From Lepisosteus oculatus (taxonomy: Eukaryota; Chordata; Actinopteri; Semionotiformes; Lepisosteidae), in contig NC_090711.1 of assembly GCF_040954835.1 (NCBI RefSeq), positions 3,355,501 through 3,419,500 of the forward strand: 64,000 bases of DNA. Reading direction: 5' to 3'. The notes below the pieces were generated by a model that worked only from the letters and a program-made list of their open reading frames with translations, had not been told where the DNA came from and did not search any database. Numbering within the stretch: the first letter of the stretch is position 1; every line of letters starts with the position of its first letter. The translations under genes were made by a program, and so were the position numbers. This document shows positions 25,324 to 57,767 of the stretch, in pieces.

Positions 25324-28300
25324 ATGGCTGACCGAGAGGATTCAGTGAGGGAGTTTGTTACAGTTACAGGTGTAGAGGAAGAGCGGGCCCGGTTTTTCCT
25401 CGAGTCTGCAGGCTGGGATTTACAGGTAGGGCTTCCTTGATTTCAGCAGTTCAAAACTTAGAAGTAGGGTTTCGTGTTGTTTAATGTCAAAAGGAGAATG
25501 ACAAAGACCACCCCTCCCCTCTCTCTTTGAAAATCGTCACAACATCCAAGGCGAAACCGCTGTAGTTGTAGAATTTGCAAGTCACTATACAAAGCGCCGG
25601 TAGCTTTGCTGGAAAAATTTCATTACAGTATAAATATAAAACCCCATCTTTCAAGAGCTGAGGTTTGGAGTAGAGGACGTGAATTTGGTTAAGACTAAAT
25701 TGGACACTACTTTCAAATTGAATAGATTAGCCATTCGTGAGATTAAAAAATAAAAAAAATGTTGAAAACTAGACAATCGAAACTGAGACACTTTTTTGGG
25801 TAATCTTATTCATATTTTCGTTTTGTTAAGTAGTTTCGTTTTTCCCAGCTAAATTAAGTTATGGGAGACTGGTCTCGCCTAACAGAATACGTCTTTGTGA
25901 TTTTACTCTTTTATTTCACGTTTAGTTTACGCATGAAGTGAAAGGTAGAGCACCACGTTTGCCAAAAAGTGTTTGCGTTTTCGTAATTCTGCTTCAAAGT
26001 CTGAGGAATTTGCTACGTGAATGGTCGTTCTGGAAGATACACTTTTGTGTGTCTATATAAGGATTATAATACGTGTTGTCACATCCAAATATCTGTAGGT
26101 ATGATGCCCTTCAATAATTTCGTCTTGTTTTAACGAGACAACATTAAATTTGCAAACGGAAATTTAAGGAATAAACACACGCTGAAAAGAAGAAAGAAGC
26201 GAGCGAATTTTGGATTAACTATTTAATTGAACCACCCAGATGCTGACGAGCAACTTTCTTTTCAGAGTGAAATATTATTTACATTAACATTCCTTTCGAG
26301 TAGGAAGCTGCAAGTTTTAAGCATCCACAGTTTTCTTATGAGATTTCCTTCAGAACGGGAAAGACCAGCTCTGGTCCTGGATGCTTGGTATGTCTGTAGG
26401 TTTTCATTCTAGCTTAACTTTTAATGGCCTAATTGGTCATGGCCTTAATTGGATCGGTTATTCAGCTTCCCCAAAGTCTTCAGGTAACAGTGTTTCAAAG
26501 AGACCTTAAAAGACCATGTGATGAAACTGGGCGGTTTTGATGCTCAAGTTGATTAAGCTGATTCATTTAATCTCTGATGAAAAGCAATTCATCGTATGAC
26601 TTGAGGTGTTCTGTCTTTGCTTTGCTGTTGAACTGAGGACAGCAATAAAATGAGCAGTGTGCAAAGTGAACTGTGAACAGGTTTTTCTGGGACCAGTCTG
26701 TTCAGTGTCAAGCAGTTAGTGGTGTCCCGTTTCTGCTTTCTCTGTGCCTTAATATTCTCTCAGCAGCGCTGCATCACGGCTCTTTTTCCCATCCTTCCAC
26801 AGCTTGCCCTCGCTAGCTTTTTCGAAGATGGCGCCGATGATGATATTGTCACTCTCCCGCAACCAGAGGGCAGTTCTACCTCAAGGTCTACAGCTCCTAG
26901 GTAACAGCTGCCTCCTCTGCTGGGCTGGAAAAGCTAAAACCGATCTGGCTGGGTTAAAAAGTCAGTGTAAAAAGGTCTGAGGTTTTTTTTTGGAGGGAGG
27001 GTCTTATTAAAGTTACTCTGCTCTCTTTGCAGTGAACACAGAGTTACATCCTTCAGAGATCTAATGCATGAGGATGAAGAGGAGAGTGATGAAGAAGAAG
27101 GCCAAAGGTATGAGTGACAGAAAGAAATGAAACTCATGACATTGTTTTCCCAGAACTACTTTGGGAAGATGCTGGATGTCTCCATATCTGTTGCTCATTT
27201 CTTTAATTAGTCCAGCGATTACTTTATGTTGGCAGGTCTCTCTTGTGCTCGAGTACATCTGTCAATGTGTGTTTCCATTTTAGCTACACCATTTTGACAA
27301 ATAATTCTGTAATACTGTTCTGTTAAGTTATTGAAAATGAAGTTATAGTGGTGTCACCTTAGTGAGTTCAATGGTGTGAGTGGCAGTATTCAGACCATCT
27401 CTTTGTAAAACTCTGTTGACAGTGATAATGCGTTATTCTGACTGGAGCTCTGGAACCTGCTGCTGCTGCTGCTGTTGTTTTTGTTTGGGGGAAGTGTTTC
27501 TTTTATGAAAACAAAGCTGAACATTGAAATGTGTCGAATCGCCAAAGTCTCTTGATGTTTGGCACTGTTTTTTTCTCCTTCCTTGCCGAGGTCAGGTTTC
27601 TGCAGCAAGCTGGTCTTCTGCTGTTCTGAATCATATGCCCGACTCCTTCTTCACCGTTTTTAAGTCTGATTACTTGGGGCTCAATCTTTACAGGGGATAA
27701 GTCAGCTGGATCTTCTAGCAGTGTGGGTGAAAGCCATTAAAGGACCTGCTGCCCCTGCGTGTTCATTGGGTGTGGTGTCTGTTTGGGTGGAAGCCTGAGG
27801 CTGATCTGTGTTATTTGCCCACTGCAGGTTTTATGCTGGGGGCTCTGAGAGGAGTGGCCAGCAGATTGTAGGCCCTCCCAAGAAGAAGAGCTCCAATGAG
27901 GTGGTGGAAGACTTGTTCAAGGGGGCCAAAGAGCACGGTGCTGTTCCAGTGGAAAGAGCCTCCAAAGGCCCCGGGGAGTCCAGCAGGGCACGGGTAGGGA
28001 AAACCGGACCCTCTTCTCCGTTTCTGTGCATCCCTGGGGGAAAAAAAAAAGAATAAAAAAATGCTTTCTCTGCAGTTGTACTCCTCTGCTCTTTGAGCCC
28101 TTTCAGGCAGCCTCGTGCTTTGTAAGCGTGTTTCCCCGTTTGTTGTGGAACCAGAGTCCGGCTCAGGTGTGCTACACAGGCTACAGAGTTGCCTCCTCTC
28201 ATTTGCAGCCAAGCTCACGTTCTTGATCGCTCTTCTGCCAGTGAGAGAAACATCGGTACATGGAGGCGGTAGGCTCTGTCTAAAAGTATCTCGGTCTCCA

Positions 28301-31300
28301 CCCCACCTCCCAAGGGTTTTTTTTTTTTAGCCGCTGTGAGACCCATCGGCAAAAGCGGGCCACCCCGACGGTGAGGCCGTATCTGGCAACGGTCATCGCC
28401 ATGTTGACGTTAACGTGGCGGCGTAGCGAAGCCGTCTCCTTTCTGGTTCAGATGCAAGTCTGTTTGCCGCGGGGGTCGCCCCTCACAGATGGCGCACCCG
28501 CAGAAAGCTTTGCAATCCCCCCCCCGCGCCCCGGCTCTAACCCCGCGCCCCTCTTGCCCTGTGTGTTGCAGCCGTTCGCTGGAGGAGGGTACCGCCTTGG
28601 CACCGAATCGGGGGAGGAGTCCGCCTACGTCGCTGGGGAAAGGAAGCAGTCGGAGTCGGCGCAGGACGTGAGTCCCCTTGTTCCTCGTTGCCCGGGGGGG
28701 CGCTTGGCCTTTGATCCGGAGGTCCTTCATTTGGGATGAATTAATTGCCGACACCGCTTGATGTGGTGCTGGAAATTAATTGCTAGGTTTTCTTTTTTTT
28801 AACATTTGAAGTTTTTGTGAACAACAACAACAACAAAGACAACAAAAAGAAATGTGCCTGCAGTTAGTACCTCAGTTCAAATACTCGCTTTCCTCCGGAA
28901 GCCTAATGCAGAATTGTGGGATTTAGTTTTGGCATCTAAGGGGGAAACTGAAGGGTTTGGATTTTGTTTAGTTTATGCCAAGGCCAAGAGTGACATTCTT
29001 TTAAAAAGAGTGTGTGTGTGTGTATTGGGTGAGCCAACCGAAAGTAACTGATACGATTTTCTCTCAAACTGAAGCGGGCCGCTGGAGCCTAGAGCTATAA
29101 CTACAGCTTCAGGCTTTCATCCCTATGAACACTTGTGTTCTTTTGTCAAAACTAAGCTTGATACATTGAGTGAATATGACGACTACAGTGACTCATTATA
29201 TATATTCCATATGCATATCGCTCGCAGTGATCAATAGTGCTTAACACCGCTAACTATCGGTTTATCATTTATATTTCTCATTGCTGTTTAGGTCAAATAA
29301 CTAATTCAACATGATGCAGCCTATGTTTGTAGATACGTATTGCAGTAAATCAGTTTTATATCTCCCAACAATTTTGGTTGGCACATGTTTCCTGTAGTCC
29401 AGTGAGGTATCTCTGTCTGGTGTTTTTTTTGTTCCTGATCACAAGTGCTAATCGGTGTCATAACTCATCTGTTTGCTGTTTTGGGACCTTTTTTTATACT
29501 CAGTCTTTGGTTTCAAAAATAAAAGTTCTGTATTTCCAACAACGTAAGAACACAGAAATTGTGTGTGTACTCTCTCCTCAATTTGCAGAACGATCGTTTA
29601 TTTTTTGACTTAACTGCTCTTAAGAAATGACCAATCGATGAACAGATAGGCGGGAATGAGACTTATCACACATGCCCTTTGTAAGTCAGTGTTTTTCCTT
29701 CCACTCAAGATCGCATACCTGAATGAGGGCTTCTTGAAACATGTAAATCAGTACAGGGTTTATACCTATTACAGATCTCATTCAGGTTTAAACAGCTGAA
29801 GGCAAATTTTAAGAAAGGCTCAAAAAGCTAGAGGAGATAAGGGGCAGGACTGAGAACCTCTGTAATGGGGTAATAATTATTATTTGAAACCAAGGCCTCA
29901 GTGTAAAACAGCTCAATTACTAGCAGCATTTAGCACAGGAGATTAAGGGCCCAGCTGGCACAGAAAGCACCAGACACGGTGTCCTCCTGGACCTGGATCG
30001 TGGATCGTTGCTGTCGTCGGGCGACAAGCCATGCATTGTTCCGGCTCATGCAGTGAAGGCAGTGTTGTTGCCCCGACAGGTGCACGTGGTCCTGAAGCTG
30101 TGGAAGACGGGCTTCAGCCTAGACAACGGAGAACTGCGGAGTTACTCCGACCCTGAAAACTCCCAGTTCCTGGAGTCCATCCGGAGAGGGTGAGGAAGGC
30201 GCCGGCTTTCGCTGGGCTGCTGGCGTGGCCTGTCGGAATGCGTCATTGCGACCTGGTTTAAAACGTGGGGCAGCCCGAGCTGTCGCGCAGCGTCCACCAG
30301 GACGGATTTGGAAAGAAACCTTGATTGACAAGAAATGACCTCTCAGAGATAACATTGTAAACCGCTCATTGGCACTTGAAAAATCACAGGAGAATGGACC
30401 GTGACGTGGCCGAAGTACACGTCTTAGTTTGACAAAGGGCAAGATGACAGTCGTTTTCACCTGTGGCTGCTGGCAGGTTTGGCAGAGGAGGCTGGCAGTC
30501 AGAGATCATCTTTATTTTACGAAAGCCGCCGCCCATCTGAGGGACTTGGGGTGTTCCTGTTTTGATGGCGTGTTCACTGCCTGCGCGGCGTGCCTGGGAG
30601 GGCGCGGGCGTCAGTGCTGTGGAGTGACGGGGGCGCGGGGGGGCGTCTTGTTGCAGGGAGATCCCCGTGGAGCTGAGGCGGCTGGCCCGAGGAGGCCAGG
30701 TCAACCTGGACATGGAGGACCACCGGGAAGAGGACTTCTCCAAGCCCAAGACCATGTTCAAGGCCTTTGCTGGGGAGGGCAAGAAGCTGGGAAGGTGAGC
30801 TGCAGGAGCTCCCGTCTTTGGCCTGGCTGTCCCATCCATGAGTGAGGGTGATGTTCTTGATAAGAATGAGGCTTGTGGGTAGCATTGCTGCTCCACGTTC
30901 ATATGTTTTTTTTGTTGCGGCTGCTCCGGTTTCCTCCCAACGGATCCAGAGACGTGCTGGTTGGTTAAATCGGCTTCTGGGAAACCTGGCCCTGGTACGA
31001 GCCAGAGTGTACCCCGTCTTGTGCCTGTTGCATGTTGGGATAGGCTTCTGCTCCACACGTGACCCAGTGTTGGATAAAGTGGTTAGAAAATGAATGAATG
31101 AATGGATGAAATGACTTATTTATTTTGCCTGTTGTAACCTTTTAAAGTTTCTTGGTTTTTGCCAAAAGAAAAGCATTGTTGCATCAGAAGGCCACAAGGG
31201 GGTGTTCACTTCCCATTGCAATGGACAGCAGTTACAAAACTGGTCAAGTGTTTAGGCTTCTTGACGTGTTCCTTTCCTTTATTTGACCATCGTAAAGGAC

Positions 31301-33180
31301 TTCCTACAACTCTTAAATAAAAGATCTGCACCTGATGACTGATGGTGGTATCACCATGGCATGGTCGTTAGTGCTGTTACCTTGCAGCTCTTGAATCCTG
31401 TGTGGTTCATGACTCGGGTCACCTTCGGAATGGGGTTTGCAGGGATTTTGGCTGGTGTCTGTTCCTGCAGTCCCGAGACATGCTGGCCATGCTGTGTGTC
31501 TGGAATATCCCTGTAGTGTGTGTGTGTGTGTGAGCCTTGCTATAGACAGCATCCTGGACAGAGTGTTGTCCCTGCATTTTGTGTTTTCATGACTCTGGAC
31601 TGCTGTGACCCTCAACAGAAATTGGTGGTTTTCTGATACAGAGTGGATGGATAAAAGACAGTTGTCCGAAGAATGTTTGTGTTTGAGTTTTTGAAGAGAA
31701 ATTAGCTGTTTTTTTGCTTAGGCTTTGAAAACGTCCAACATTTTCAGAGCTGTAAGTTGCTGTTCCAATGAAGCCCATTCCACACTTCGTGGGATCTTTT
31801 AAAAGTTAAGCCAGTCCGTCCTACATTCTGTTGATAGGGCTGGTGCCGTCGTCCATAAGCACACTGCAGGGTCTTTCAGTTCCTGCCAGAGCAGGCTGCT
31901 GTTTCTTCAAGCCATCAGCAGCAGCAACACCTGAAGAGCTGGGAAAAACTGGTAAATGGTGCCAATTAAAGACACTAGCGAGTTTCCTTAAAATGTTAAG
32001 AGCTGAGATGCACCAGCTGTGCAGGATCGGAGTCAGTGCACTCTGGCCTGTGGGTCTTCCAGGGAGCTGTGTTGATAGACTGACCTGGTGCGTTGGAGAA
32101 ACCTTGATTTACTTCGGTCTCTGTGTGTGCCTGCAGCGCAACACCCCAGGTCATCGGCTCCATCGTGGGGACACAGCGAGAAGCTGACGAGGCCCAGGCC
32201 TCCAGCGAAATCATAATTAACGAGGAGGAGCCCGTCACCAACATCCAGATCCGACTGGCTGACGGGGGGCGTCTGGTCCAGAGATTCAACCTCACGCACA
32301 GGTCAGGAGCTCATCCCACCTTCCTTCAAATCGATTCCAGGGATAATACTCCAGGATACAAAGTGGCACAACTGTTGGATACCTTTCTGAGTTCCTGAGC
32401 TTTGGGCTCTTGTTCGTGTAGTAACAATGAAACAAAAGAGCACTTTTTTTTCCCAGATGACAAAGCCTACATCACTAAAAATAATGTAGCGTCAGTGAAG
32501 CCTCCAGTTGGTTTACCTACAGTAGCTTTGAAAAGCTTAAACTTCTGTTCCTGGAGTTAAAGAAGTTTCATCCTTGTACTTAGTTCACTCCTTTTTTTAT
32601 TTTTGAAAGAATCCACAGAGCACAAAGAAAAACTAGTGCTCATGAAGGAATGTGAGGCTCGAGGACAGTAATTATCTAGAAACACAGAAGTCAGCTGCCT
32701 CACAGAGATCTCTGTACTGTAATCTGCGGAGTATAATGTAACTTTCATGAAATTTATTTTCTGATAGATCCCTGCTTGATTTTAATTGTCTGTTGTTGAT
32801 CTGATATTTGATGAATTTCCCAACATGTAGGATTCGACCCTTTTTGCTTTTCCTTTTGTGCCGCCTATACTCTGCAGTGCATTTCCAACAGTAATGCTGA
32901 GGGGTGTGCAAGGCTAGAGACCTCGGCTGGTACCTGATGCTACTGCTAACTTCCTCACACCTCCCCTTGCATGTGGAGAGCGCTGTGTAATGAGACGCCC
33001 CTCTGTCCCTTTTCCAGAATCAGCGATATCCGCCAATTTGTGGTCTCTGCGCGTCCGGCCATGAAAGACGTCGACTTCGTCCTGATGACCACCTTCCCCA
33101 GCAGGGAGCTGACGAAGGAGTCCCTGACGCTGAAGGAGGCGGACCTCCTCAACGCGGTGATCGTGCAGCGGTTGAAGTGA
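25324..33180 (+). CDS. nsfl1c: NSFL1 cofactor p47 (p97/VCP adaptor), 9 coding exons
   Basis: Coding exons: 25324-25425, 26803-26900, 27033-27107, 27828-27993, 28572-28667, 30080-30189, 30657-30794, 32137-32301, 33018-33180; 1,113 bases, 370 aa, the same length as human p47. It is an adaptor that brings the hexameric ATPase p97/VCP to ubiquitinated targets in Golgi and ER membrane reassembly. The protein shows an N-terminal UBA domain (about residues 1-45, [20 protein letters not shown]), an acidic stretch after [11 protein letters not shown], a first SHP box FAGGGYRL (149-156), a SEP domain (about 180-245, [20 protein letters not shown]), a second SHP box FAGEGKKL (253-260), and a C-terminal UBX domain (about 288-368, [18 protein letters not shown]). 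The presence of a UBA domain separates it from UBXN2A. The start has an AAAATGG context with no upstream in-frame ATG nearby. The mammalian Cdk1 site (Ser140-Pro) is Gly139-Pro here. Intron 1 carries a dispersed repeat; intron 7 carries two SINEs. Confidence 0.97.
26365..26480 (+). repeat. Dispersed fish repeat in nsfl1c intron 1
   Basis: This contains CCAGCTCTGGTCCTGGATGC followed by GTCTGTAGGTTTTCATTCTA and alternating AATTGG/TTAATTGG words. It resembles a short repeat common in fish genomes (a 'ctggtcctgga ... tgcaggttttcattcc' pattern). A related fragment occurs at about 38,495-38,560 in the transporter gene. Class not determined. Confidence 0.45.
30866..31113 (+). mobile_element. tRNA-derived SINE in nsfl1c intron 7
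   Basis: The head is eroded. The body has CCAGAGACGTGCTGGTTGGT, CGGCTTCTGGGAAACCTGGC and GAGTGTACCCCGTCTTGTGC, and the tail ends GGTTAGAAAATGAATGAATG AATGGATGAAATG. The uninterrupted 'GAGACGTGCTGG' junction makes this copy a useful reference for the interrupted copy at 37.4 kb. Confidence 0.7.
31191..31206 (+). promoter_or_regulatory. CTCF-like motif in nsfl1c intron 7
   Basis: GCCACAAGGGGGTGTT fits the CTCF core less fully than the 24.4 and 53.3 kb sites. It lies between two SINEs. Motif match only. Confidence 0.3.
31343..31658 (+). mobile_element. tRNA-derived SINE in nsfl1c intron 7
   Basis: The head retains a recognisable polymerase III-type arrangement (GGCATGGTCGTTAGTGC, then CTTGAATCCTG). 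The body has GCAGTCCCGAGACATGCTGG and a (GT)n expansion at about 31,516-31,532. The tail region has CATCCTGGACAGAGTG, then ends ACAGAGTGGATGGATAAAAG. It belongs to the same family as the copy just upstream and is in the same orientation. Confidence 0.65.
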
Positions 33181-33690
33181 CCGACGCCCGCCGTGGGCCT
33201 GCTGGGGACATCGCCAACTGGGGAGCCGACAGGAGGGATGGACTTCTTTCTTTAGGGTGTTCTCACCAGTCCGGGTGCGCTGTTGGGACTGAAGAAGATA
33301 GATAAAATGCTTTTTAAAGAAACTTTAATTGACCTCAAGGGGTTCTTCAATAGTGTTAGACTTCTAGTTCTTCAGAGATGCAAGTTTCCTACATCATGCT
33401 CCTCTCCCTTTCATGTGTAATTCGTTTGTACCGCTGTAACCCAATGCCTAAGTCCTTTCATTCAGAATCTGCAGTAAAATGTGCTGGAGGGAGTAAGTGA
33501 TTTGTTTTTTACAGGGATGCGCTATCTGAAGGGTTGGGGAGGAGGGGCCACAATTTGTCTGGATTGCGATGGTTAGACTTGTACAGGGTGTTCACCCTTT
33601 CACCTTCTCTTCCCCCTAACCTTTGAATGGGTTTTTCATGACTTTTGGAAACTTGTGATTAAAACTGAACATAATTTAATTCATGTATTT
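33181..33690 (+). promoter_or_regulatory. nsfl1c: nsfl1c 3' UTR and poly(A) signal
   Basis: The 3' UTR runs from the TGA at 33,178-33,180 to a likely ATTAAA hexamer at 33,658-33,663; AT-rich DNA with a (TA)n run follows at about 33,692. No canonical AATAAA is nearer, so the end is inferred. Confidence 0.5.
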
Positions 33691-35474: not shown

Positions 35475-38400
35475 ATGGATGGAGCGACGGAAGGTCCCGA
35501 GACCGCGACGGCACGGGAGCCCGACATCAGCACCGCGCTCGGCGCTGGCGCAGGGTCCGAGGGTGTAAGTTCACCTCCATCGGGAATGCTTTCCAAACCT
35601 ACAGAACTTTTAGGGGATCTATTGCATTGCGCTTTCTTTACGTTTGTATTTGCCTTTTTTTATTTTTTATTTTTTAAAAAAAAGCGATGCATGTAAAGCA
35701 TTTTAGAGGTTAGTACGCGGAGTGTGATGAAACTTCAGTTCGATGCTTTCTTAAAATGAGAAAAAGTGCTAGAAATACAGCGCGTGGGAAGTTTGGTATC
35801 CTGTTTTCATGAAATTGGCGTGCAAGCGTGCCCCGAACTTTACTTATCGACTGTGTTGGGAAACGTCTCGGCAAACTCTCTTTGTTAAGATCTGGTCTTA
35901 TGCAATGTGCCACGAAACCTCATTTTGAGGAGGCTTTTACGCTGACGTCACGCCCTCCCGCAGAGACCCCCTGGGGCAGGGGGTAAAGTGCACGTTATGT
36001 TTTGCCATCCCCCAAGTTTGAATGCAATTCATTTTGAACTAAAGCCCTTATTGGATATCTGAGCTATGAGCTCGGACTTCAGCCGACGTGCACGGTCCGA
36101 ACGTTGGTATGCAGTGACGCTAAATGTAGTTCATACTGTATGAACACACCGACACCCCTGTCCGGTCGGTTCAATGGGGTGTCTGGTTTCTGTATTGTCC
36201 TGTACCGTTACATCTCCCAGGTCTCGGGATTCCTTTTTTTTAATGGGCGAAGTATCGCAATACCAGTGCAGATAGTGGTGATGTTGCGAGCGAGTTATTA
36301 TGAGCCCAGTGCAGGTCTCCACGACAGTCCGAGAAGGGCGGGGCAGCAGAGCGGTCAGTAGCTCCAGGCTGGAGGTCGAATCCCGGTTGAGAGATCAGCG
36401 AGGGGAGACGAGAGGTCCGAGACCCGATGGGCCTTCGTGTCGGTGGTCAGAGGTTCGAGAACGATGCAAGCTCAGGGGGCAGATGGATCCCGAATACCGA
36501 GCGAGGACTAGGACTGAACGGAGGGCTGAAATAGTGAAGGAAGAGGAGATTGAATCATGAGGATTAATTGCCGGCAGTGCTGGTAACAGGTGGTCCCATT
36601 TGTCCTTCGCCTTAGAGAAACCTCCAGTCTGCCCGGAAAAAACAAAACAAAAACAAAACAAGATTGATCTCGGGTGTCGAATGGCATTCGAATCTTTGGG
36701 GTTTTGCTGGGGTCGCGAATGAGATGGAAATGCAGTTCCTAGAACAAGAAAAGCAGAGAGAGAAGGGAAAACGAAGAGATCGCTTGGGCTTTGACCACCT
36801 GTTGAAACCGCAGTGTTGTCCGAAATCCCTTTTCCCACTTCAGTGATGCAGACCGAGCAATTCGGTATTATCTCGAGATTCCATTGGACAAAAACAAAAA
36901 CAAGCTTAACGATTTTTAAAATTATATCACAAAAGGGCGAGTCTCTTGTTAGAATACTGAATACTGAAACTGACTTCCTGTATCCAAAATATCTTTTTAA
37001 GATGCTGTTTACCAGACGTGTGTGTTATGTGAATGCTATAGATATATACAGTACTACTGTACAGCAGTGGTGCGGAGCTGAAGTAACCAGTATGCTTCTG
37101 TATACTGTATTGCGTAGCTCCAGAGACGAAGTCGCCCGCCCGTCTAAACTTCAGTAGGGTGGAGAGGGAGCTAAGGTACATGAGTTTTAATCTTCTGCGT
37201 GTTGTGGATGTGCCGACTGACAGACGATTTATCACACACCCCCCTGCAGTTTGAAAACCCGTCACTTAACTCGGCAGCGCTGTACCTGGAGAGAGGCTAG
37301 TGCGGGCAGACAGTAATGCAGTAGCACTCCCAAACCCTCTCCCGCTGTTTTGTTTCCAGAAAGTGTGACGGGTCCTTGGGAGTTCAGCTCCTGACCCGGG
37401 GTGCGATCTGGGTGCGGCTTGTCTGTCTTTACGTGGGTTTCCTCCCACAGTCCAGAGACGTCGTGCTTCGGCGGCACAAATACCAAACATTGTAACGAGA
37501 CCGAAGAGATTGGCATGGCAGGCAAATTCGTGAAGCGTTCCAAAGGCGTGCTGGGAGGTTTTCTGGCTTCTGGGAAAACTGGCCCTGGTGTGAGTGCGTG
37601 CCTGTGTCTGTGTGCCCTGGGATGGACCGGCACACTCTCCAGGGTGTATCCTGCCTTGCGCCAGCTGCTTGCCAGGATAGGCTCCAGCTCCCCCGCTACC
37701 TGGACTTGCATGAAGCTGTAAGAAAACGGATGGAAGGGTGTAACCTGTATCTGCGCAAGTCTTCTTAAGGCCCTACCTCAGCCCTCACCCTAAGACCTGC
37801 TCGGCCACCTGCTGTGACAGATGTGCTTTAATGCTGTGCAGAATTTCTTTGGCACAGTTGTCGTTAACGAGTGCGAATGCTGTCATAATGCCATATGGGG
37901 TTTCAGTAGAGGTGATAGTGTTGGTTATTCGGAGAGCTCATGTAAATAAAGCGAGACCTGAAAAATAACGGAGATATGGAGACGGCTGGATCATGGAAAA
38001 ATGCAAATCATGCAAATGTGTTCCTGTGGGTTTTCTTTCATTTTCCTCCCACAATCCCGAAACACACTGGGAGGTTAATTTCCTTCTAGGAACATCAGCC
38101 CTCTTGTGTTAGCGTGTTAGCGTGTGTGCGTGTGTGCGTGTGTGTGTGTGTTTGTGCCTGTGTGGGCGCTGGGATGGGCTGTTCCCTGCCTTGCGCCCGT
38201 TGCTTGCTGGGTCAGACCCCGAGCTGGAGGAAGAGGCTAGAAAAGGATTAGACGCCTGTGACATGGGTGTCCTCTCGTTCCAGAAGCCCACGGCGATGCC
38301 GCTCCGCAGGAAGATCTGCTATGCAGTCGGCGGGGCTCCTTATCAGATGACATCGAACGCGATTGGCTTCTTCATGCAGATCTTCCTCTTGGATGTGGTC

Positions 38401-47400: not shown

Positions 47401-50400
47401 ACATTAATCCTAAAATTCCATGCAGTAGGCATCCTGTACCATCTAACTGCACGTATTTAGTTTGAAAACTGCTTAGATTTGAGTGAAAGCCCTGGTGTTG
47501 CACAGGGATCTTCTTTCGGACCACTGCTCTGCTTAATTTAGTTCAGTAACCGAGATTCTGGTATAGCTAGTAAGATAAGGTTCACAGATAACAACAAAAC
47601 AAGAAGAATACAAAACAATGCGGAAGTAGCAAAAGAAATTTGAAAAAGGCGAACAGTCTTTATCATTTTAGAGATGTCTTTGAGGCATGCTTTTTCCAAG
47701 ACGAGTTTTGTTGTACGTCTTGCAGTTTCCACATGTGTGGCACAGTTCAGTGGCCTGTGGGGAATCTAGCCTTTTATCTGCAGCCGTGGTGTGTGTCCTG
47801 TCTGCAAAATGTTTATTCCCACCTCTCGCAGAGAGCAGTCACTTCTGCCCTCGCCTCTCGACATACTGACTGACTGACTGGCACAAAGCCAGCTGGAAGA
47901 GCCTGACTTGTCACTCTGGGGCTCATGCTATGAAAAGGACACAAATAACGTCGGTCTGTAAGGGATCCTTGCAGACTAGATGTGGACCAATTTCTTTCTT
48001 CCAGCACAGTCATTTCTAACCAGCGTGAATTAGGGTCAGGGTCGGGGTCAGGGTCGGGCTCAGGGTCAGGAGCAGGGTTGAGGTCAGGGATGGGGTCAGG
48101 AGTAGGGCCAGGGGTCAAGGTCAGGGTCAGGAGCAGGGTGGTGCTGCTAGGCAAACTAGTAAAGGGATGAGCTTAGAGCAAGAAACTCTGTGACACGTAA
48201 CTGTGATATTGTGCAAGCGGCCCGAACTGATTAAAACCTTATCAGTGAAATACTTCTGTGCTTCAGCTTGCATATCCTGTGTTTTTTTTCTCTCACAGCT
48301 CACATTAACACATGCTACCGTTTAAGCTAATGTACATCTAGTGTAAGTTCATTTTCTGTAAATGACATTCACACGTGACATAGGCACAAAAAGGCACAGA
48401 AATTATACACTAACATTTATAAATGGGTTGATTTGGAGTTGGTTGTAATGCATTCTCCTTTACATTACGTTACATTATTCTTTATTGGACATTTCTGACC
48501 AACTAACACAAGACTTCTTTTATAACCCATCTATCATGTTGGTCCCGGAATACCTGAGCTGTTTCTGCGATCTGAGTCCAGTCAGCCATGTGTTGTCATG
48601 ATCGTCCGTCTCACTGAACAGGGGAGTGAAAAACGCAGTCAATGGCCACCTGCGTCTCCGGTCACTGCTACAGCACCTACCTGCTTCACGTTGTCTTATG
48701 GTGTCTGGAAAACTGACCGGAAGTGGAAGTCAGTGGAAAGCTCGTGGCTTCGCTGTCTTGCTGAGAAAGCCCTGACGCGGTGCGTGTGTTTTCGCAGGTC
48801 CATGCTGCCGGACGTGGTGGACGATTTCAAAGTGAAGAACCCCAATTGCAAGGACCTGGAGCCACTGTTTTACTCCTGCTATGTCTTCTTTAATAAATTC
48901 GGGGGGGGGATGGCCATCGGAATTTCCACCTTGGCTTTGCAGTAAGTGGCTCTGATTCCCTCTGACGTGACGCACCGCAGTGCTGGGGAAAAAGCCTCCT
49001 CGCACTAAAAAGATAACAAAGCTTTAGTTCTACTTTGTTACTCTACAATCCGTGTAGTATACTATACTGATGGTACATAAGGAACGGCACAGAGAGGCAG
49101 CAGTTTTAATATACTATTAACAGTGGTTGTGAACTTCCTGATGGACCTGGCAGGTGTGTCGAAGCCCAGGGAAAGGTTTCATCTTTCCTTTTCTTCTGCA
49201 ATCTTCGTATGAACATGCAAGGGTATAAATACTGTGAATACAGAACCTATAACTATCCTGGCTCCCTTCATCAAGCTAGAGTGTTACATTTCAATATCTG
49301 GTCTAGAGAAAAGAGTGCCACCTACTGGCACTTTTCTTCAGTACAGATTGCATAAGAGCAGGCATTGAGGTGGCATTGTCGCTGTTATATCTCATAACAC
49401 AGCTGTTTCATACTGTACCAAGCTTCACTGTTACATCAATATTGACTCATCTGTAAAGAACTTGTAACCTGTGTGACGCTCGCTCTGGTTTTGTGTCCCA
49501 GCTTTGCAGGGTACCGGCCAGGTGCCTGCAGGCACAACCCTGCGGTGATCACGACCTTGAAGGTACTGTTCGCCCCAGCCCCCATCGGGCTGCTGCTGGT
49601 GGGGATGCTCATCTTTTACTTCTACCCCATCGACGAGAGGCGCCGGAGGGAGATCAAGATCGAGCTGGAGAGAGCGTAAGTCTCCTCTGTCCAGACTAGC
49701 CTTGGGGTCAAGGGTTAGGGGTTAGGGGTCAGGGCGGACATTCAGCTTGGGTTTTTCCTAGTAGGAGTCGGAAAACACTTTCCCCTTTGCTTCAGTAATC
49801 CCATGAGCGAGCCCAGCTTAGGTGCATACATTGGAACAGCAGGCAAAAGGGGGACAAAATAAGATGAGAATTTTTTTAAGCAATTTTAAAACTTTAAAAA
49901 CATCAAAATGACATTTAGTCCATTCTCGAACCTTCACGGTGCTTTATTGAATAAAAAAGGCCCTTCCTTGGCAGAATATCCACTGGTGTCCTAAGCAGAG
50001 GTTAACACATGCTGACACTGTGCTCCCTATTTGCTGTGCAGTTATCAGTTTAATATTCTTTAACACATGTATTTAAAAATGTAAGGGAGATAGAAAGGGA
50101 CAGTACACAGTACAGTGACGAAAACAAGACCATTCTCTCTTTACTTCATGTGAGAGGAAGGGTGGAGAAGTTCTGGAAATGAAAAGGCAACATCGGCCCG
50201 TCCCCTGCACTGTTTAGCCTGCAGTGTGCCCCTCTGAAATAAGTGAAATATCTTCTCGTTTATCTCTCGCTGACCTTTTGTGTGCAAAACAAATATTTAC
50301 CAGCCAGTTCAAGAAGTCTGTCGACACAAGAATGGAAACAAGCGACAGGATGTCAGGGTGACCAAACCAATGTTGCACCAGACTCAGAGACAGGTTGTCC

Positions 50401-50783
50401 TGCGGCGTGCATGCCTAATCATGCCCTGTTAGACACAGAAATAGCATTGCATGGCAAGTGGTGTTTTGTAAGCAGAAATCGTACTTTGAAAATGTCCTCC
50501 GTCGTTGGTTTTATTTTTCCTTGCTGTGGCCTTCCTCCCGTGTCAGAAGTGGCTGTCTGGAGTTTTTATGATTCCTTGCAAGTGTGGGGGAAAGAACTGA
50601 GAAATAGGTACTTCTGATAAATGCAGCTTTTTTATTATTTTAATGTGGTAAAATATGTTGTTGCAAAATTTCAAACTGTATTACCATACAGTATACAGTA
50701 TATATATATATTCATTACTCTGTCCTCACAGGGAGAAAAAGGAGAACAACATGAATCTGAACACTCCTCTGCAGAAGCACTGA
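35475..50783 (+). CDS. mfsd2al: MFSD2-family lysolipid transporter (MFSD2A-like third paralogue), 14 coding exons
   Basis: Coding exons: 35475-35564, 38284-38403, 39173-39297, 39971-40103, 41093-41171, 41901-42070, 42839-42929, 43671-43792, 44849-44932, 45678-45761, 46802-46914, 48798-48941, 49502-49675, 50732-50783; 1,581 bases, 526 aa. It is a 12-helix major-facilitator protein of the plasma membrane. MFSD2A imports lysophosphatidylcholine with sodium and MFSD2B exports sphingosine-1-phosphate; the substrate of this one is unknown. Family marks: KICYAVGGAPYQ opening helix 1, GRAWDAITDP with Asp87 and Asp91 (the sodium-site acids), CYHVPYSSL, ERDSATA-type KDRDSATAFRM, SMLPDVVDDF, and Lys437 in YVFFNK (family's functional lysine). 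The loop after QGQIVG has three glycosylation sequons (Asn217, 222, 227) and Cys213, which probably pairs with Cys461. The protein mixes MFSD2A-like features (GGAPYQ, GRAWDAITDP) with MFSD2B-like ones (LFCTHA, DVVDDF). The symbol follows fish 'mfsd2a-like' usage and is less certain than the family. Exon 12 contains a G9 run. Confidence 0.94.
36320..36410 (+). repeat. Possible tRNA-derived SINE head
   Basis: GGCAGCAGAGCGGTCAGTAG followed by GGAGGTCGAATCCCGG resembles a polymerase III A box and B box at tRNA-like spacing. The sequence after it does not match the SINE bodies elsewhere in the window, so it may be an isolated head or a different family. Confidence 0.35.
37385..37735 (+). mobile_element. 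tRNA-derived SINE interrupted by a U6 copy
   Basis: The body (TGGGTTTCCTCCCACAGTCC AGAGACGT) breaks off at 37,461 and resumes at about 37,548 (GTGCTGGGAGGTTTTCTGGC). It then runs through GTGTATCCTGCCTTGCGCCA to a tail AAGAAAACGGATGG. The interrupted point is intact in the 30.9 kb copy, so the intervening segment was added after the SINE arrived or during its copying. It lies in intron 1 of the MFSD2 gene. Confidence 0.7.
37463..37544 (+). pseudogene. U6 snRNA retrocopy inside a SINE
   Basis: The segment contains GTGCTTCGGCGGCACA, then AGAGATTGGCATGGCA and GGCAAATTCGTGAAGCGTTC CA. These match the vertebrate U6 spliceosomal RNA start (GTGC..TTCGGCAGCACA), middle (GATTAGCATGGC) and end (GCAAATTCGTGAAGCGTTCCA). 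It lacks four bases near the start and about 18 bases of the internal region between GCATGGC and GCAAATTCG, so it is a non-functional copy. A shared CGT at both borders could be a very short target duplication. Confidence 0.8.
38018..38252 (+). mobile_element. tRNA-derived SINE next to exon 2 of the MFSD2 gene
   Basis: Body landmarks are TTTCCTCCCACAATCCCGAA, ACACTGGGAGGTTAATTTCC, a (GTGTGC/GT)n expansion at about 38,110-38,150, and CCTTGCGCCCGTTGCTTGCT, with a tail GAGGCTAGAAAAGGATTAGA. The tail ends about 30 bases before the AG at 38,282-38,283, so the branch point of intron 1 may lie within or at the edge of the SINE. Confidence 0.65.
38495..38560 (+). repeat. Fragment of the 'ctggtcctgga' fish repeat
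   Basis: TTTCCTGACCCTGGTGCTGG followed by AGGACCTCTGTCTCTCAG resembles the family at 26,365-26,480. It is short and eroded and lies in intron 2. Confidence 0.35.
41611..41728 (+). repeat. Minisatellite, four 32-base units with inverted CCAAT boxes
   Basis: GATTGG begins at 41,611, 41,643, 41,675 and 41,707, exactly 32 bases apart. Units share GATTGGCTGTGATGG at the start and TGATTCCT at the end; the fourth is partial. Every unit carries ATTGG, the reverse complement of the NF-Y core CCAAT. It lies in intron 5, about 170 bases before exon 6. Confidence 0.85.
44365..44660 (+). mobile_element. LINE 3'-end-like fragment in intron 8
   Basis: ATTCAGAGAGAGTTTCTTCC followed by CACAAACTGTCAGATTACAG AACTCCCCCC and, at the end, AAGCATTTCATTGCACTTGT GCATATGACAAATGAACTG is the typical tail of a fish LINE, ending in a short imperfect GAACT repeat. 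No coding part remains. L2- or Rex-type origin is likely but not settled. Confidence 0.55.
48030..48140 (+). repeat. Degenerate (GGGTCA)n hexamer tract in intron 11
   Basis: About 110 bases of GGGTCA/GGGTCG/GGAGCA units with regularly spaced G runs on the transcribed-sense strand. Open frames in both directions (Gly-Ser and Asp-Pro repeats) are by-products of the tract, not genes. Confidence 0.8.
49316..49330 (-). promoter_or_regulatory. CTCF-like motif in intron 12
   Basis: The + strand TGCCACCTACTGGCA reads TGCCAGTAGGTGGCA on the - strand, a fair match to the CTCF core. Motif match only. Confidence 0.3.
49704..49734 (+). repeat. Telomere-like G-rich tract next to the exon 13 donor
   Basis: Five G runs (GGGG, GGG, GGGG, GGGG, GGG) separated by TCAA, TTA, TTA and TCA lie 29 bases after the last base of exon 13 (49,675). 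Two TTAGGGG units resemble the vertebrate telomere repeat. The arrangement meets the usual rule for an intramolecular G-quadruplex in the pre-mRNA. Confidence 0.7.
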
Positions 50784-52870
50784 TCCCTCTGCACAGCCCC
50801 ACAGCCCTGTCTGTCTGCAGCCTGTTCCCCCGTCAGGCGACACGAGTCTTATCAGGACTTAAAGGAGTAGTGAGGCAGATGTATTCGCTGCACCGCAGTC
50901 CTGACTAAATGAAAATCCACTGTGTGTCTCCTGCTGCACTCTGCTGACTCCAGCAGATGTGCACCTGCTGTTTTATTTTACTGCTGTCTAGCGCCGGGTG
51001 TCCTGCCCTGCGTCCGCTGGGGCAGAGCTCTGGTCGAGGTCAGCACGATTTCACACTCGGCCATTCCAGTCCAGTCTGTTGCAGTACTTCAGTGTCTTAG
51101 ATAGCAGAATTCTCCAGCAGAAAGGACTGAGAGGGACGCTGGTCTGTGGGTGGATATAACACTCATTTGTCATTCATCTTGATTAGACTCCATGTTTAGG
51201 AACAAGAGCAGTGCCTGTCCACCAAAAACTGCTTTTCTCAGAAGTAGATTTTTTCAGGGTGGGTGGAGGACAGCTTTGACACCCTAAATTAAATCTTCCC
51301 AACTCCAGGACTGTGTGGTCTCTCATCCCTGGCCCACCACTCTATGTGAAAGTGATGGACTGAGAAGAGGGCGGACCGGTGATACAGTGATTAGCACTGC
51401 TCTGGGGCTCTGGGTTCAATGCCAGACCTGGGGAGCTGTCTATGTGAGTCTGTTTGTTCTTGTGGCTTTCCTTGGGGTGCTCTGGTATCCTCCTATAGTC
51501 TGAAGACAGGCTGGAAGGTTAATTGGCTTCTGGGGAAGATTGGGCCTGCTGTGAGTGTCTGTGTTTATGTTCTGTGTGCCCTGCAATGAACTGGCTGTCC
51601 ATCCAGAGTGTATCCTGCCTTGAGCCCGTTGCTTGCTGGGATAGACTCTGGCTCCCCGACATAAATATCTGTAAGGACCCTAACCTCAGGCCCCATCCTC
51701 AGACTTGCAGTGCCACTTGATGTGACAGGTGTCCCATCTCGGGTGTATCCTGCCTTGCGCCTATTGCTCGATGGGATAGGCTTCAGCCCTAAACTGGATG
51801 GAGTGCTTAAAAGATGAATGGATTGCGAAGAACTTTCGGCATTTGCAAAGGAGAGGGGCTGCAACAGTGCTCTGGAATGCTCACCTGTACTCTGTATCCA
51901 TAGGTGAGGTTGTGCAATCCAGACACTGTATTCCTGAACTTCCTTCAGCCTGCAGCTATGCTGAAACAGACAGACGCAGTAGCAACTCCTTTGTTCTTTT
52001 TAAAAAACATGAAAGGTCACTGGGCAACCAGACATGCAGCGTCATTTCCAGATGAACTCCAGTTGCCTTGAAGCAGGCGTTCATTTACGTTCTCGATTTC
52101 GAACAGAGACGGCTAAGATTTGCTGGTGCATGTTCCGATGTGGCTTTGTGTATTTGTAAATGCCCATAGATCTAGCTGCCAAAAAAAAAAAACTCTGAAA
52201 GTCATCATCCTGGACAAAGCAGATAAAATGCTCCGAAGGATTAAGTGCAGCACCAATGGGAGCACAAGATTCATGCTGGGATATACACATCGCCTGTGAG
52301 ACTATCACCTTTTGGATATGAAGACCATTGTGGTACTATTGCTTCTCAATGTGTCACAGCTGGTGTCATCAGCTGTCCACCCCAGCTCCACATGGGGTTT
52401 AGCTTGTACCCACCTGTGCCAGCTGGGACAGATTGGATATGATATGGAATGTAAAATATGTCGATTCTGTCTGCTTTTTCTCTCTTAAATCTGGGTTCCT
52501 TTTGCTTATTAGGTTTTTTTTTCACTATTTCTGTCTATGGCAAACTTATATTTCTAATTGTGCTGTTCTGTAAGAGTATGCAATATATCAGATGTTTTGT
52601 TTTTCTTTTCTGTAAAAATGACAAAAGATGTAGCCTTATAGCTAAATTAGTGGGTTTTTTTTTCATATAACTGTGAAGACTGTGTATTCTGTCTTCTGAA
52701 AAGTTTTTAAAATTTCCCATTGCAGTACCTAAGAGATCAAATAACAGAAGATTCCTGATCTCCAGGTATAGTTATACTGTATATACATGGGTTAAAGGAA
52801 CTATATATCTTCAGTACATAGTTTATATATTGTATGTTGTGTTCTTAATAAATACTAATTGATAATGTGA
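50784..52870 (+). promoter_or_regulatory. Probable 3' UTR of the MFSD2 gene with poly(A) signal
   Basis: After the TGA at 50,781-50,783 the first good poly(A) hexamer is AATAAA at 52,847-52,852 in AT-rich DNA, giving a 3' UTR of about 2.1 kb that includes a SINE at 51,371-51,827. An earlier, non-canonical end cannot be ruled out. Confidence 0.4.
51371..51827 (+). mobile_element. tRNA-derived SINE with a duplicated tail
   Basis: This is the best-preserved head in the window: GCGGACCGGTGATACAGTGA TTAGCACTGC (A-box region) and GGGTTCAATGCC (B box, 51,412-51,423). The body has TGAAGACAGGCTGGAAGGTT AATTGGCTTCTGG. The tail block GTGTATCCTGCCTTGAGCCC appears at about 51,608 and again as GTGTATCCTGCCTTGCGCCT at about 51,743, so a second partial copy sits behind the first. 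It ends AAAAGATGAATGGA. Confidence 0.7.
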
Positions 52871-53929: not shown

Positions 53930-54098
53930 CAAAAAGCCCCAGAACCGGGCCTCCGGTCCCCGTCCCCACCCCTCTCTTTCCGGCCCCAGCGCGGAGCGGG
54001 GGGAGGTCTGTGTGTCACATGTGCGCGGCGCAGCGCAGCCAGTGCCGCAGCCGCTGGGTAGTGCGCGTCTTCTGCGGAGGGTCGCAGCGAGAGACGAG
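53930..54098 (+). promoter_or_regulatory. fkbp1a: fkbp1a CpG-island promoter and 5' UTR
   Basis: This GC- and CpG-rich stretch, without a TATA box, runs up to the ATG at 54,099 (context GACGAGATGG), as expected for the broadly expressed FKBP12 gene. A pyrimidine-rich block at 53,950-53,990 precedes the densest CpG region. Confidence 0.55.
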
Positions 54099-57000
54099 AT
54101 GGGTGTCGAGATAGAAACCATTACCCCGGGAGACGGTATGGCCTCGCTTTTTTCTCCCCCCACCCCCTTTTTTTTAAAAGACGCAGCCCCGAAAAGGTGG
54201 GGATTTTGCTTTCGTGCTTTTAAGAGAGTTCAGGTGACCGATTTCACCCGTTTACGGCTCTTTCTTTTCTCTCCCCTCCAAACGCGCAGGAAGGACCTTT
54301 CCTAAAAAAGGACAGACGTGCGTGGTGCACTATGTCGGTGAGTAAGCTGGCTGGGTGGGGGAGGACTGTTCACATTGTAGGCCTCTTGTCGGGGAAGTGG
54401 GAAGCGGGGAAAATGAAATACCAGCCACTCTTGAGTGGGAAGGTTTTGCCGCAAAGGGAGACCAGACGGGGCGGCGAGCTTCGTGCAAGAGCTCAACCCG
54501 TTGTTGGGAGTTTTTTTTATTTGTTTCCCGGCAGGATCAGCAGCGATCAATGGTTGTGCGTAAAACCTGCCTTGCGGATCACCTCTGGGCAGAAAGGGGG
54601 ACGAGGCGGTGTCGGATTTAAACCCGTCCCGTTTCTGTTGTGGGGTCCGCCGCAGAGAGGCGGGGGGATTCCTGCTTCAAGCCCGACGGGTTCGTCTCCT
54701 TTGCCTGCTCCAGAGGTGTCCGTGTTTTTGGGAGCCTAACGTGACCTTGCGTCAAATCGAGCAAATTAACTAGGTTGAACGTCGGACCCTTCCTGTGGCC
54801 TTTGCGCCACCATGCTCGGGGTAAACTGGGTTACAAAGGAAAACCGAGAACAAGTGTGTCGGTTTGGCTTGGGTTCATGTAAAAACCGAGCTCAGCGCAG
54901 CCAACAATGCGTTCGACTAGACACTTCATTTCAGCTATAAAGATCACCTTAGTAGTCGAACTTGTATAAGGTTTAATTTCGCCTTTAAATACCTATACAT
55001 TTCAATCCCATTTGTTCAGACCGCTGTAATGCCCTTTTTCCGCTCTTCTTGTTTTTTTTTTCACGTTCTCGTTCCCCGAGCTCTTTTTCCGTCTACATTA
55101 ATTATGGAGTTAATTTACGATCATTGTTGTGCTCAAGACAAACTGAAATCCATTTCCTGCGGCTACCGTGGACAGGCTTAAAGCATGGGCTTTAAATATG
55201 TGAATTTCAAGACTTCGTGGTTCCCCCCCGATGGTTAAAACCGGTGGAATATTAAGAAGCAGTTTCTCACGGGGTGGGAGTGGAGAGGGGTCAGTAAGGT
55301 TGTAGCCTTGATCCTCAGCTGTCCGGAGCGCTTGCCGTTGTCGGATGAGGCGCAGGCGGGGTGAATGTCATTCTCCGCGATTAAGGACTGGGCTGCGCCA
55401 ACTGGTGATCTATCCGTGCTCGTCAGTCTCGTTCATCCTCTCGGCTCTGTCCTGCCCTGATAATGAAGCTGAGCCCGGCGGCCCCCCCAACTGCAGCTGC
55501 ATCCTGTACTGCTGTCGAGAGACAGAAAATCCGGGAAGAGGATTCGTTTACGTTTTATGCCCTTTGAATACAACTGTATGCTATGCATGGCATTAGTGTT
55601 TAAACGTTAATGGAATAGAAGGTGAGCGTTTTATTTGACCCGATACAGTGTTGAAAAGCCCACCTCAAGGCGTTTTATGGTGTTATATGGATGTTAGGAG
55701 CGGCGGGAGTGGTTATTCTGTCGTGATGAAAACTGTGTCATTGCCTGTAATTCATTCTGACTGTCCTCTTACATGACCAGAAGGCACGAAGAAGACAATG
55801 CGACATTGCTTTTCATTTCTCTCTCTCTCTCTTTGCTCTGTGGTGCTTTTCTGCTTCCAGACACATGCGGTGCTGAGCTGCCTCTTGTTCAGATGTGGAG
55901 GACATTCTGTATGCGGCTTTCTCGCAATTAAAAAAAAAAAGAAACATCAGAATCCTTGCCTTTTTAAAGTTGTTGCACGTGGTGGGTTTTGTCTGTCTTG
56001 GGGAAGACCTTTGCTGGGGGGGGTTGGAATTAGCTCCCGTTGCTTTCAGAAACCCCCCAGTGAGAACGTTCTGACCGCGCAGTGTTCTGTACCAGGCGGT
56101 GGACTGGATGCTCAGTGTAGGGTGTCATGGCTGCTGCATGAACAAGCCAGTGCTCTGTGTTCAGAGCTCAGACCCCCCTTTGAGAACTTTATGACCTGGG
56201 GGCCCCTGTTGGCTTGTCCTCCGCTCATCCTCTGAACAAAAAGACATCCTTGAGATTTCGGCTTTGATGTGGACTTCAAAATGTCAGAACTGGAGAACCA
56301 CCTGACATGTAATGAAAGAAGAAAACGTCGCAAATCCAGATTTGAGGCTCATGTGACTTGTTTGTACTTTTTAATATTGTACCATGTCTTGACAGTGCAT
56401 AATGGGAGGGAGGGATGCCATTTTTGATGACATAATTTTATTGTTTTAATTGCATTAACCCACCATTTCACTGAGGGGGCATTGAGTGCTTGAAGGGGTT
56501 TCGTCCGGCTCTCACCCAGGGGTGGGGTTTGTGGTTTATTTTGCAGGTTCACTGACGGATGGCCGGAAGTTTGACTCCTCCCGGGACAGAGACAAGCCCT
56601 TTCGGTTTAAAATAGGAAAACAGGAAGTCATTCGAGGCTGGGAGGAGGGCGTCGTCCAGGTATTTGTGCTGATTGTCAGCCTTCGTTGCAGCATGAAGCT
56701 CTTAGGAGTGTTCGTCAGGAGAAGATGTCAATGTGTAAAATGTGTGCGTGGTCTCAAAAGTCAGGATTCTTGTGCCTTTCAGATGTGGGTACAATTTAAA
56801 TGTGCACCTTCCTTACTGAGAAAAAAGGGTATTTTTAAGTTGCGCTAGTATATAAATTGACCTCTTAGTAATGTCTGTTCTCCGACTGAGATGCCAGGGA
56901 ATCGGATAAATGTTTGTACAGAGGAGTCGAGAAAGCCGAGATTTGTGCTGTCTGTGAGTTCCATAAATGTGTAATTAACAAAGGCCTGTCACGCCCAGGA

Positions 57001-57767
57001 TGTTTGAGGCAATGAAGAAATTCTCTCTAGAAGGCCGGCCTTCTCCATAACACCTGGAGAAGGTTCCATAGCAGAAACATTTTCTTTTTCTTTTAACCTG
57101 GGCTGAACCTTTACCTTCATATCCTAATGTAAAGGGGTTAGCTGTAAATAGGTGTTATGAAAAACCCAGTATCTCGAGAAACCTTCTCGGAGGTGGTGGC
57201 TAATTGTGTGGTTCTGCTGAACGCTGCCTGCACATTTTTTTTTTATGAACTGGAAGGATCAATATGGCAATTCAGTAGCTGGTTCCATCCAGGTACAGCA
57301 ATGGAGAGGTTCAGAGGGACTGCAGAGGGAGTTCCCTGGTTTTACAGGGAAAACAAAGCCGAAAAGCTCCACGTCCTATTTAAAAGTGATCAGTGTGGAG
57401 GTCTTATATCATAGGGATACAAAAATCTTGCCGGACGGCGTGGCCCTGCTGAGCTGGGGCATTTGTGGGTCAGAATAATTACTCTTCCAACCTGCAGCGG
57501 ATTTTTGCTCGTGTTTTCGAGCCCTGTGCGTTTCCACGAGAACGGACACTCGGGGGGGCGGGGGGGGGGGATGTTTGCAGGTCCCCTGGGGGAGCCCTGA
57601 CTCTCACAGCTCTGTGCTCTTGTTTCGGTTCGCTGCAGATGAGTGTCGGCCAGAGGGCCAAGCTGACCTGCTCCCCTGATTACGCCTATGGGTGTAAGGG
57701 TCACCCTGGCATCATCCCGCCTAATGCCACGTTGATCTTCGACGTGGAGCTGCTGGGGCTGGAGTGA
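54099..57767 (+). CDS. fkbp1a: FKBP12 peptidyl-prolyl isomerase, 4 coding exons
   Basis: Coding exons: 54099-54135, 54290-54337, 56547-56659, 57639-57767; 327 bases, 108 aa, identical in length and exon plan to human FKBP1A. FKBP12 is a cytosolic cis-trans prolyl isomerase that binds FK506/rapamycin and regulates ryanodine receptors, TGF-beta type I receptors, calcineurin and TOR. The ligand-pocket residues are all present (numbered without Met): Tyr26, Phe36, Asp37, Arg42, Phe46, Glu54, Val55, Ile56, Trp59, Tyr82, His87, Ile90, Ile91, Phe99. Asp32 and Trp59 match FKBP12, whereas FKBP12.6 (FKBP1B) has Asn32 and Phe59, so this is the FKBP1A side; the start MGVEIETI is 1B-like, but the rest favours 1A. 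Position 84 is Cys where mammals have Ala. Intron 2 (2.2 kb) is the largest; intron 3 carries a retroelement fragment at about 57.05 kb and a poly-G tract at about 57,550-57,570. Confidence 0.96.
57022..57115 (+). repeat. Second copy of the 14.8 kb inverted-repeat element, one arm
   Basis: GGCCTTCTCC...CACCTGGAGAAGGTTCCATA followed by AGAAACATTTTCTTTTTCTT and GCTGAACCTTTACC matches the right arm and centre of the element at 14,797-14,967, with only a short piece of the left arm. It lies in intron 3 of fkbp1a. Fossil fragment, no coding part. Confidence 0.5.

Follow-up and report, generated by a model that had tools for sequence, protein, structure and literature searches.

We analysed a stretch of 64,000 nucleotides from the genome of Lepisosteus oculatus (NCBI RefSeq assembly GCF_040954835.1, contig NC_090711.1, positions 3,355,501 to 3,419,500 of the forward strand), hereafter referred to as the window, in which positions are counted from the first letter. 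Three apparently complete genes lie in a row on the plus strand of the window: NSFL1C, which encodes p47, a gene of the MFSD2 family, and FKBP1A, which encodes FKBP12. The block runs from 25324, where the p47 start codon opens, to 57767, where the FKBP12 stop codon closes. A preliminary description of this DNA had placed these genes consecutively on one strand, and their exon structures and domain matches bear this out. To our knowledge, human 20p13 has no MFSD2 gene at NSFL1C-FKBP1A. In vertebrates, MFSD2A supplies omega-3 lipid to the brain and the eye, and MFSD2B exports sphingosine 1-phosphate (S1P) from red cells. From its sequence and its surroundings, the gene described here is very probably a third vertebrate member of the family and ohnologous to MFSD2A and MFSD2B; it is provisionally named 'MFSD2C'.

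Structure of the MFSD2-family gene

MFSD2C extends from 38263 to 50783 on the plus strand and comprises 13 exons. The protein, counted from the ATG at 38263, has 503 amino acid residues; the length of 526 residues given in the preliminary description was not reproduced. The twelve core exons, between 38263 and 49675, are separated by GT-AG introns and contain no internal stop codon. The Pfam family MFS_2 is matched over all 427 positions of its profile (E 1.6e-89), and a search of the PDB returned four MFSD2A chains at the top, with E values from 1.3e-156 to 6.8e-149, and four chains of MelB far behind. All the motifs noticed earlier (GGAPYQ, GRAWDAITDP, LFCTHA, DVVDDF and TLKVL) are present in the spliced protein.

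Residue numbers hereafter are those of the MFSD2C protein unless stated otherwise. Exon 1 (38263-38403), the first coding exon found, carries Tyr27 and Gln28, and exon 2 (39173-39297) carries the cation-site motif GRAWDAITDP, with Arg61, Asp64 and Asp68. Exons 3 (39971-40103) and 4 (41093-41171) are followed by exon 5 (41901-42070), which encodes Met161, Gly162 and Glu164 as well as an extracellular loop in which Cys190 and Asn-X-Ser/Thr sites are found. Next to exon 6 (42839-42929) come exon 7 (43671-43792), which has Gln287 at its end, and exon 8 (44849-44932), where Gln290, which replaces the headgroup glutamate of MFSD2A, is found within MAQGNFALFCTHA. Beyond exon 9 (45678-45761), exon 10 (46802-46914) contains the gate residue Tyr377, a phenylalanine in MFSD2A, while exon 11 (48798-48941) completes the split codon of Trp381 and carries Glu402, Asn413 and Lys414. 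Cys438 belongs to exon 12 (49502-49675). The last exon (50732-50783), predicted solely from its acceptor splice signal and phase, would add about 17 residues up to a TGA. All these exons are on the plus strand. A GC-AG intron considered after exon 4 was rejected, the donor being GT.

A dispersed repeat occurs around the gene, at 30972-30996, 37550-37693, 38177-38217, 51510-51657 and 51734-51787. Since a short copy ends less than 50 bases from the first coding exon, the bases that precede the ATG at 38263 probably do not code for protein, and the N-terminus as modelled from this ATG is provisional. Intron 4 has a 32-base tandem repeat of 3.6 copies (41607-41721).

Paralogous loci in the same genome

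The assembly from which the window was taken (1.2 Gb, 813 contigs) was searched for related genes. Its contigs are designated here by C and a number, the contig of the window being C16. These searches score the best candidates only, and counts refer to the matches listed. With the MFSD2C protein as the tblastn query, the 23 listed exon matches were all found on C16 (12), C11 (6) and C2 (5), which gives two further MFSD2 loci among the matches listed. Both genes were assembled, and both are open over 12 exons. The gene on C11 is MFSD2A; it groups with the zebrafish sequence (90/93) within the MFSD2A clade. This grouping and the single-copy state of the genes would fit a ray-finned fish that lacks the teleost duplicates. 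The gene on C2 (24010239-23983054, minus strand) is identified as MFSD2B by its position and by its grouping with a provisional human MFSD2B sequence (99.5/100). A Pfam search of the genome for MFS_2 gave 10 matches on 7 contigs, which include C19, C32, C3 and C10. The loci on C19 and C32 were rejected as MFSD2 genes, with 31% and 25% identity to the MFSD2C protein over a single stretch each in tblastn, and so were those on C3 and C10, where tblastn with this protein found nothing at E 0.01; we read these four loci as more distant MFS_2 proteins. On viral contigs, none of 255 pattern matches was a relative.

MFSD2B on C2 has neighbours of the same kind as those of MFSD2C. On one side there is a UBXN2-type gene (24030565-24023399, minus strand), found through weak matches (E 3.2e-6 to 8.4e-4), with a UBX domain of the p47 kind; from its position, we take it to be UBXN2A. 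On the other side lies FKBP1B (23917395-23916472, minus strand), whose last exon is closest to FKBP1B chains. The triplet on C2 thus has the same order and relative orientation as the triplet on C16, so that the mirrored UBXN2-MFSD2B-FKBP1B arrangement, which the preliminary description had drawn from the human genome, is present on one strand within the same fish genome. Two papers agree with this arrangement: a cattle gene list has FKBP1B, WDCP, MFSD2B and UBXN2A consecutively (PMC12075139), and the same genes occur together in one human 2p24.1-p23.3 amplicon (PMC3664071).

A larger block was examined with the ASXL, DNMT3, NCOA and MYC families. The first three are common to human 2p23 and chromosome 20, and a MYC-family gene flanks MFSD2A. 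The three ASXL matches are on C2, C6 and C16, the three DNMT3 matches on C16 (two) and C2, and the three NCOA matches on C16, C6 and C2. Among nine MYC matches, strong ones are located on C6 (best E 5.5e-94), C2 (1.2e-65) and C11 (2.4e-42). A distance of 41 kb separates the MYC-family gene on C11 (2747376-2751176) from MFSD2A, of which the first exon found is at 2791774. These matches suggest a fourfold set made up of C2, C6, C11 and C16. MFSD2 genes are found on three of these four contigs, C16, C2 and C11, and none was found on C6 among the matches listed. MFSD2A thus also appears, probably, to be part of the same fourfold paralogon, which goes beyond the earlier proposal of a triplet.

Two side observations concern C16. 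The two DNMT3-type matches on this contig (4126722 and 4167841) are 41 kb apart and correspond to the same part of the domain, while C2 has one match; the pair is perhaps a tandem DNMT3B in this species. At 1269643-1270490, there is also a weak and divergent match to the MYC family, broken into two parts, which may belong to the fish mych lineage.

Relationship to MFSD2A and MFSD2B

The MFSD2C protein has sequence identities of 50.6% and 46.4% to MFSD2A and MFSD2B of the same genome, respectively. Against a set of five MFSD2A sequences, namely the C11 protein and four PDB chains, the identity is 48.6-51.1%. For comparison, MFSD2A and MFSD2B of this genome have a sequence identity of 56.8%, so that the MFSD2C protein is more divergent from each of them. 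The 11 comparable introns all share the alignment column and the phase in the three genes, and for this reason MFSD2C is no retrocopy. Common introns together with this divergence also speak against a recently transposed copy, in line with the earlier proposal.

Maximum-likelihood trees were made from the MFSD2 sequences with 18 bacterial homologues as a distant outgroup. The MFSD2A clade (99.5/100) excludes the MFSD2C protein, and so does the MFSD2B clade (99.5/100), whose members are the C2 protein and the provisional human sequence; when the latter is left out, the B clade is a single sequence. Nesting inside MFSD2A or MFSD2B is thus rejected, for MFSD2B with a clade of which one sequence is provisional. 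The MFSD2C protein falls outside MFSD2A and MFSD2B together with a support of 96.4/98, or 93.7/98 when the provisional human sequence is left out, and this placement has the best score in all eight overlapping data sets. Approximately unbiased (AU) tests reject both alternatives in one of the eight sets (p 0.021 and 0.040), a set that includes the provisional human sequence, and in the other seven sets the alternatives stand, with p from 0.083 to 0.25. We regard the outside placement as weakly supported, and the sequences as compatible with MFSD2C being sister either to MFSD2B or to MFSD2A and MFSD2B together. As the preliminary description expected, the protein thus lies apart from the A clade and the B clade, but the best tree places it, weakly, outside the two together rather than beside MFSD2B.

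Alternatively, MFSD2C could be the direct sister of MFSD2B, if the copies of the block on C2 and C16 were the last to separate; its position outside both paralogues would then be due to long-branch attraction to the bacterial outgroup. The complete triplet, found on C2 and C16 only among the matches listed, is in favour of this, as are p values of up to 0.15 in the AU tests and 15 residues, including Gln287 and Gln290, which are common to the MFSD2C protein and MFSD2B of the same genome at positions where all five MFSD2A sequences agree on another residue. However, 25 residues are common to the MFSD2C protein and invariant MFSD2A against this MFSD2B, the outside placement scored best in every data set, and the sister position was rejected in one of them (p 0.021, the set with the provisional human sequence). 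We consider a direct sister of MFSD2B possible, but less likely than not.

Binding-site residues

For the substrate pathway, we used 31 functional positions of zebrafish Mfsd2a, including D174, taken from PMC10167227. MFSD2A from C11 keeps all 31, the MFSD2C protein 23 and MFSD2B from C2 22. MFSD2C retains, among others, the proposed MFSD2A cation site (Asp64, Asp68 and Lys414), residues Arg61 and Gln28 in trap A, residues Arg160 and Glu402 in trap B, and the gate residue Trp381; in zebrafish numbering, Arg84, Asp87, Asp91, Arg180, Glu421 and Lys433 are among the kept positions. The eight changed positions are Met132, Gly162, Ala289, Gln290, Leu314, Leu315, Tyr377 and Asn413. Asp64 is present in the MFSD2C protein, and MFSD2B of the same genome has a glycine there. 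MFSD2B is reported to lack an equivalent of Asp93 (PMC5862976), which in MFSD2C is Asp64, and not to need Na+ (PMC5862976, PMC7948482). Gln290 occupies the position of the headgroup glutamate of MFSD2A (E312 in chicken, E309 in zebrafish), and MFSD2B of this genome also has a glutamine. In PMC10250862, chicken E312 is called absolutely conserved and essential, and a conserved loop disulphide is mentioned. All three paralogues of this genome have Cys190 and Cys438, which could form this disulphide.

The bacterial homologues indicate which state of the site may be the older one. Equivalents of Asp64, Asp68 and Lys414 are found in all 18, and the headgroup position is a glutamine in six of them and a glutamate in one. 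Glutamine could thus be ancestral and glutamate a novelty of MFSD2A, which would make the glutamine a weaker argument for an S1P-like cargo.

With 23 of 31 functional positions kept, the MFSD2C protein might be a Na+-coupled importer of lysophosphatidylcholine (LPC) like MFSD2A, its substitutions being neutral. Against this, eight positions differ, one of them by the change of an essential glutamate to glutamine, and, according to PMC10250862, even E312D causes a significant loss of transport and makes the lipid less stable in simulations. We consider such an importer unlikely.

Proposed origin and function

The explanation that we favour starts with an ancestral UBXN2/p47-MFSD2-FKBP1 block, which would have been located on a chromosome with MYC, ASXL, DNMT3 and NCOA genes and quadrupled in the early vertebrate (2R) doublings. 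The surviving MFSD2 copies would then be those on C16 and C2 (MFSD2B), each with both neighbours, and on C11 (MFSD2A), with a MYC-family gene. The single ancestral triplet duplicated in these doublings, as proposed earlier, is supported by the triplets on C2 and C16, the introns and the exclusion of MFSD2C from both clades. Alternatively, a tandem duplication of MFSD2 could have preceded the doublings, with C16 keeping one copy and C2 and C11 the other. This would fit a tree of the form (MFSD2C,(A,B)), but it requires an extra duplication and reciprocal losses, and there is one gene per locus, with no tandem pair among the matches listed, which makes it improbable. A lineage-specific or decaying copy, suggested by a divergence from MFSD2A and MFSD2B larger than that between these two, is very hard to reconcile with intact core exons, GT-AG introns, introns held in common and the retention of most functional residues.

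The MFSD2C protein itself would be a 12-helix transporter of the major facilitator superfamily (MFS), moving a single-chain lipid across a membrane by a lipid-flipping cycle of the MFSD2A type. The complete site of Asp64, Asp68 and Lys414 would provide cation coupling, Na+ being likelier than H+, and Gln290, Gln287, Gly162, Tyr377 and Asn413 would give a headgroup or gate chemistry unlike that of LPC import. We infer a cation-coupled, lipid-flipping protein for a headgroup other than that of LPC because the Asp64 site is kept and Gln290 replaces the glutamate. It is probable that the cargo is a single-chain lysolipid or sphingoid phosphate; that the main cargo is something other than LPC is favoured by a smaller degree. 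Taken together, the origin from a fourfold-duplicated block and the transporter proposal make what we consider a likely explanation.

Several observations weigh against this explanation. The tree roots MFSD2C outside MFSD2A and MFSD2B (96.4/98) rather than beside MFSD2B, and the distant bacterial outgroup could attract a long branch, the AU alternatives being unrejected in seven of the eight sets. No UBXN2 or FKBP1 match was found on C11 among the matches listed, the tie of MFSD2A to the block is one MYC-family neighbour, and UBXN2B (p37) gave no match with the full-length p47 query among the best genome candidates scored. The four paralogon families were chosen because they share human 2p23/20 or flank MFSD2A, not at random, and the MYC matches on C16 are weak (6.5e-5 and 1.9e-4), little better than that on C5, outside the set (2.1e-4). 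The gene is known here from a single genome. The function is read from residues, and Gln290 may be ancestral, as the six bacterial glutamines suggest, and no sign of an MFSD2B-like cargo.

More speculatively, MFSD2C could be a third MFSD2, lost in mammals, which combines a cation coupling like that of MFSD2A with a glutamine site like that of MFSD2B, and whose cargo, a lysolipid or a sphingoid phosphate, is moved in that direction by neither of the two known members. Its site would then be largely ancestral, and the glutamate of MFSD2A a later invention for LPC; we put this forward tentatively. The family raises the question of how it came to import one lysolipid with Na+ and export another without it, and an ohnologue with the cation site of MFSD2A and the headgroup residue of MFSD2B would be a natural intermediate for its study. 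Lipid-transport genes of fish that lack a counterpart in mammals could also find their explanation in a third MFSD2.

Neighbouring genes

NSFL1C (25324-33180, plus strand) has 9 exons with splice sites and encodes 370 amino acids. Its exons are located at 25324-25425, 26803-26900, 27033-27107, 27828-27993, 28572-28667, 30080-30189, 30657-30794, 32137-32301 and 33018-33180. Residues 3-369 match the NSFL1 cofactor p47 (PDB 7r7s, E 7.6e-180), and the Pfam domains are a UBA-like domain (UBA_4), SEP and UBX. FKBP1A (54099-57767, plus strand) encodes 108 amino acids in 4 exons, at 54099-54135, 54290-54337, 56547-56659 and 57639-57767. Its best PDB match is FKBP1A (E 1.2e-60), with FKBP1B chains almost equal (1.2e-59). 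In the first 25 kb of the window, no coding gene was apparent by eye among reading frames of at least 58 residues. Past the window on the same contig, FKBP1A is followed by a syntenin gene on the plus strand, of which one exon has syntenin-1 as its top solved match (E 7.2e-27), and then by a syntaphilin gene on the minus strand (Pfam E 3e-92). The order FKBP1A-syntenin-syntaphilin is presumably that of human 20p13.

Comparison with known systems

Among the papers listed in the literature searches, no description of a third MFSD2 gene or of an NSFL1C-MFSD2-FKBP1A synteny was found, nor any mention of the names mfsd2al1 and mfsd2al2. Fish genes annotated as mfsd2a-like, such as zebrafish mfsd2al1 and mfsd2al2, may be orthologues of MFSD2C, so that fish annotation may already cover the gene.

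With MFSD2A (NLS1), a Na+-dependent LPC symporter, MFSD2C has in common the intron positions, the Asp/Asp/Lys cation site, the arginine of trap A and the arginine and glutamate of trap B. However, it is outside the MFSD2A clade, it is located on another contig with other neighbours, and it differs in the change of the headgroup glutamate to glutamine, of the gate phenylalanine to tyrosine and of threonine to asparagine beside the lysine. With MFSD2B, the S1P exporter, it shares a setting of paralogous neighbours that agree in order and relative orientation, and a glutamine at both of the positions compared in transmembrane helix 7 (TM7). Unlike MFSD2B, it keeps the equivalent of Asp93, reported as absent from MFSD2B (PMC5862976); it also differs from MFSD2B of its own genome in an identity of 46.4%, in an arginine kept where the latter has a lysine, and in its position outside the B clade. 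Finally, MFSD2C belongs to the same Pfam family as the bacterial MFS_2/GPH symporters, such as MelB, and has in common with all 18 homologues the equivalents of Asp64, Asp68 and Lys414, although the sequence identity is 20-27% in near-full-length matches and the cargo of MelB is a sugar.

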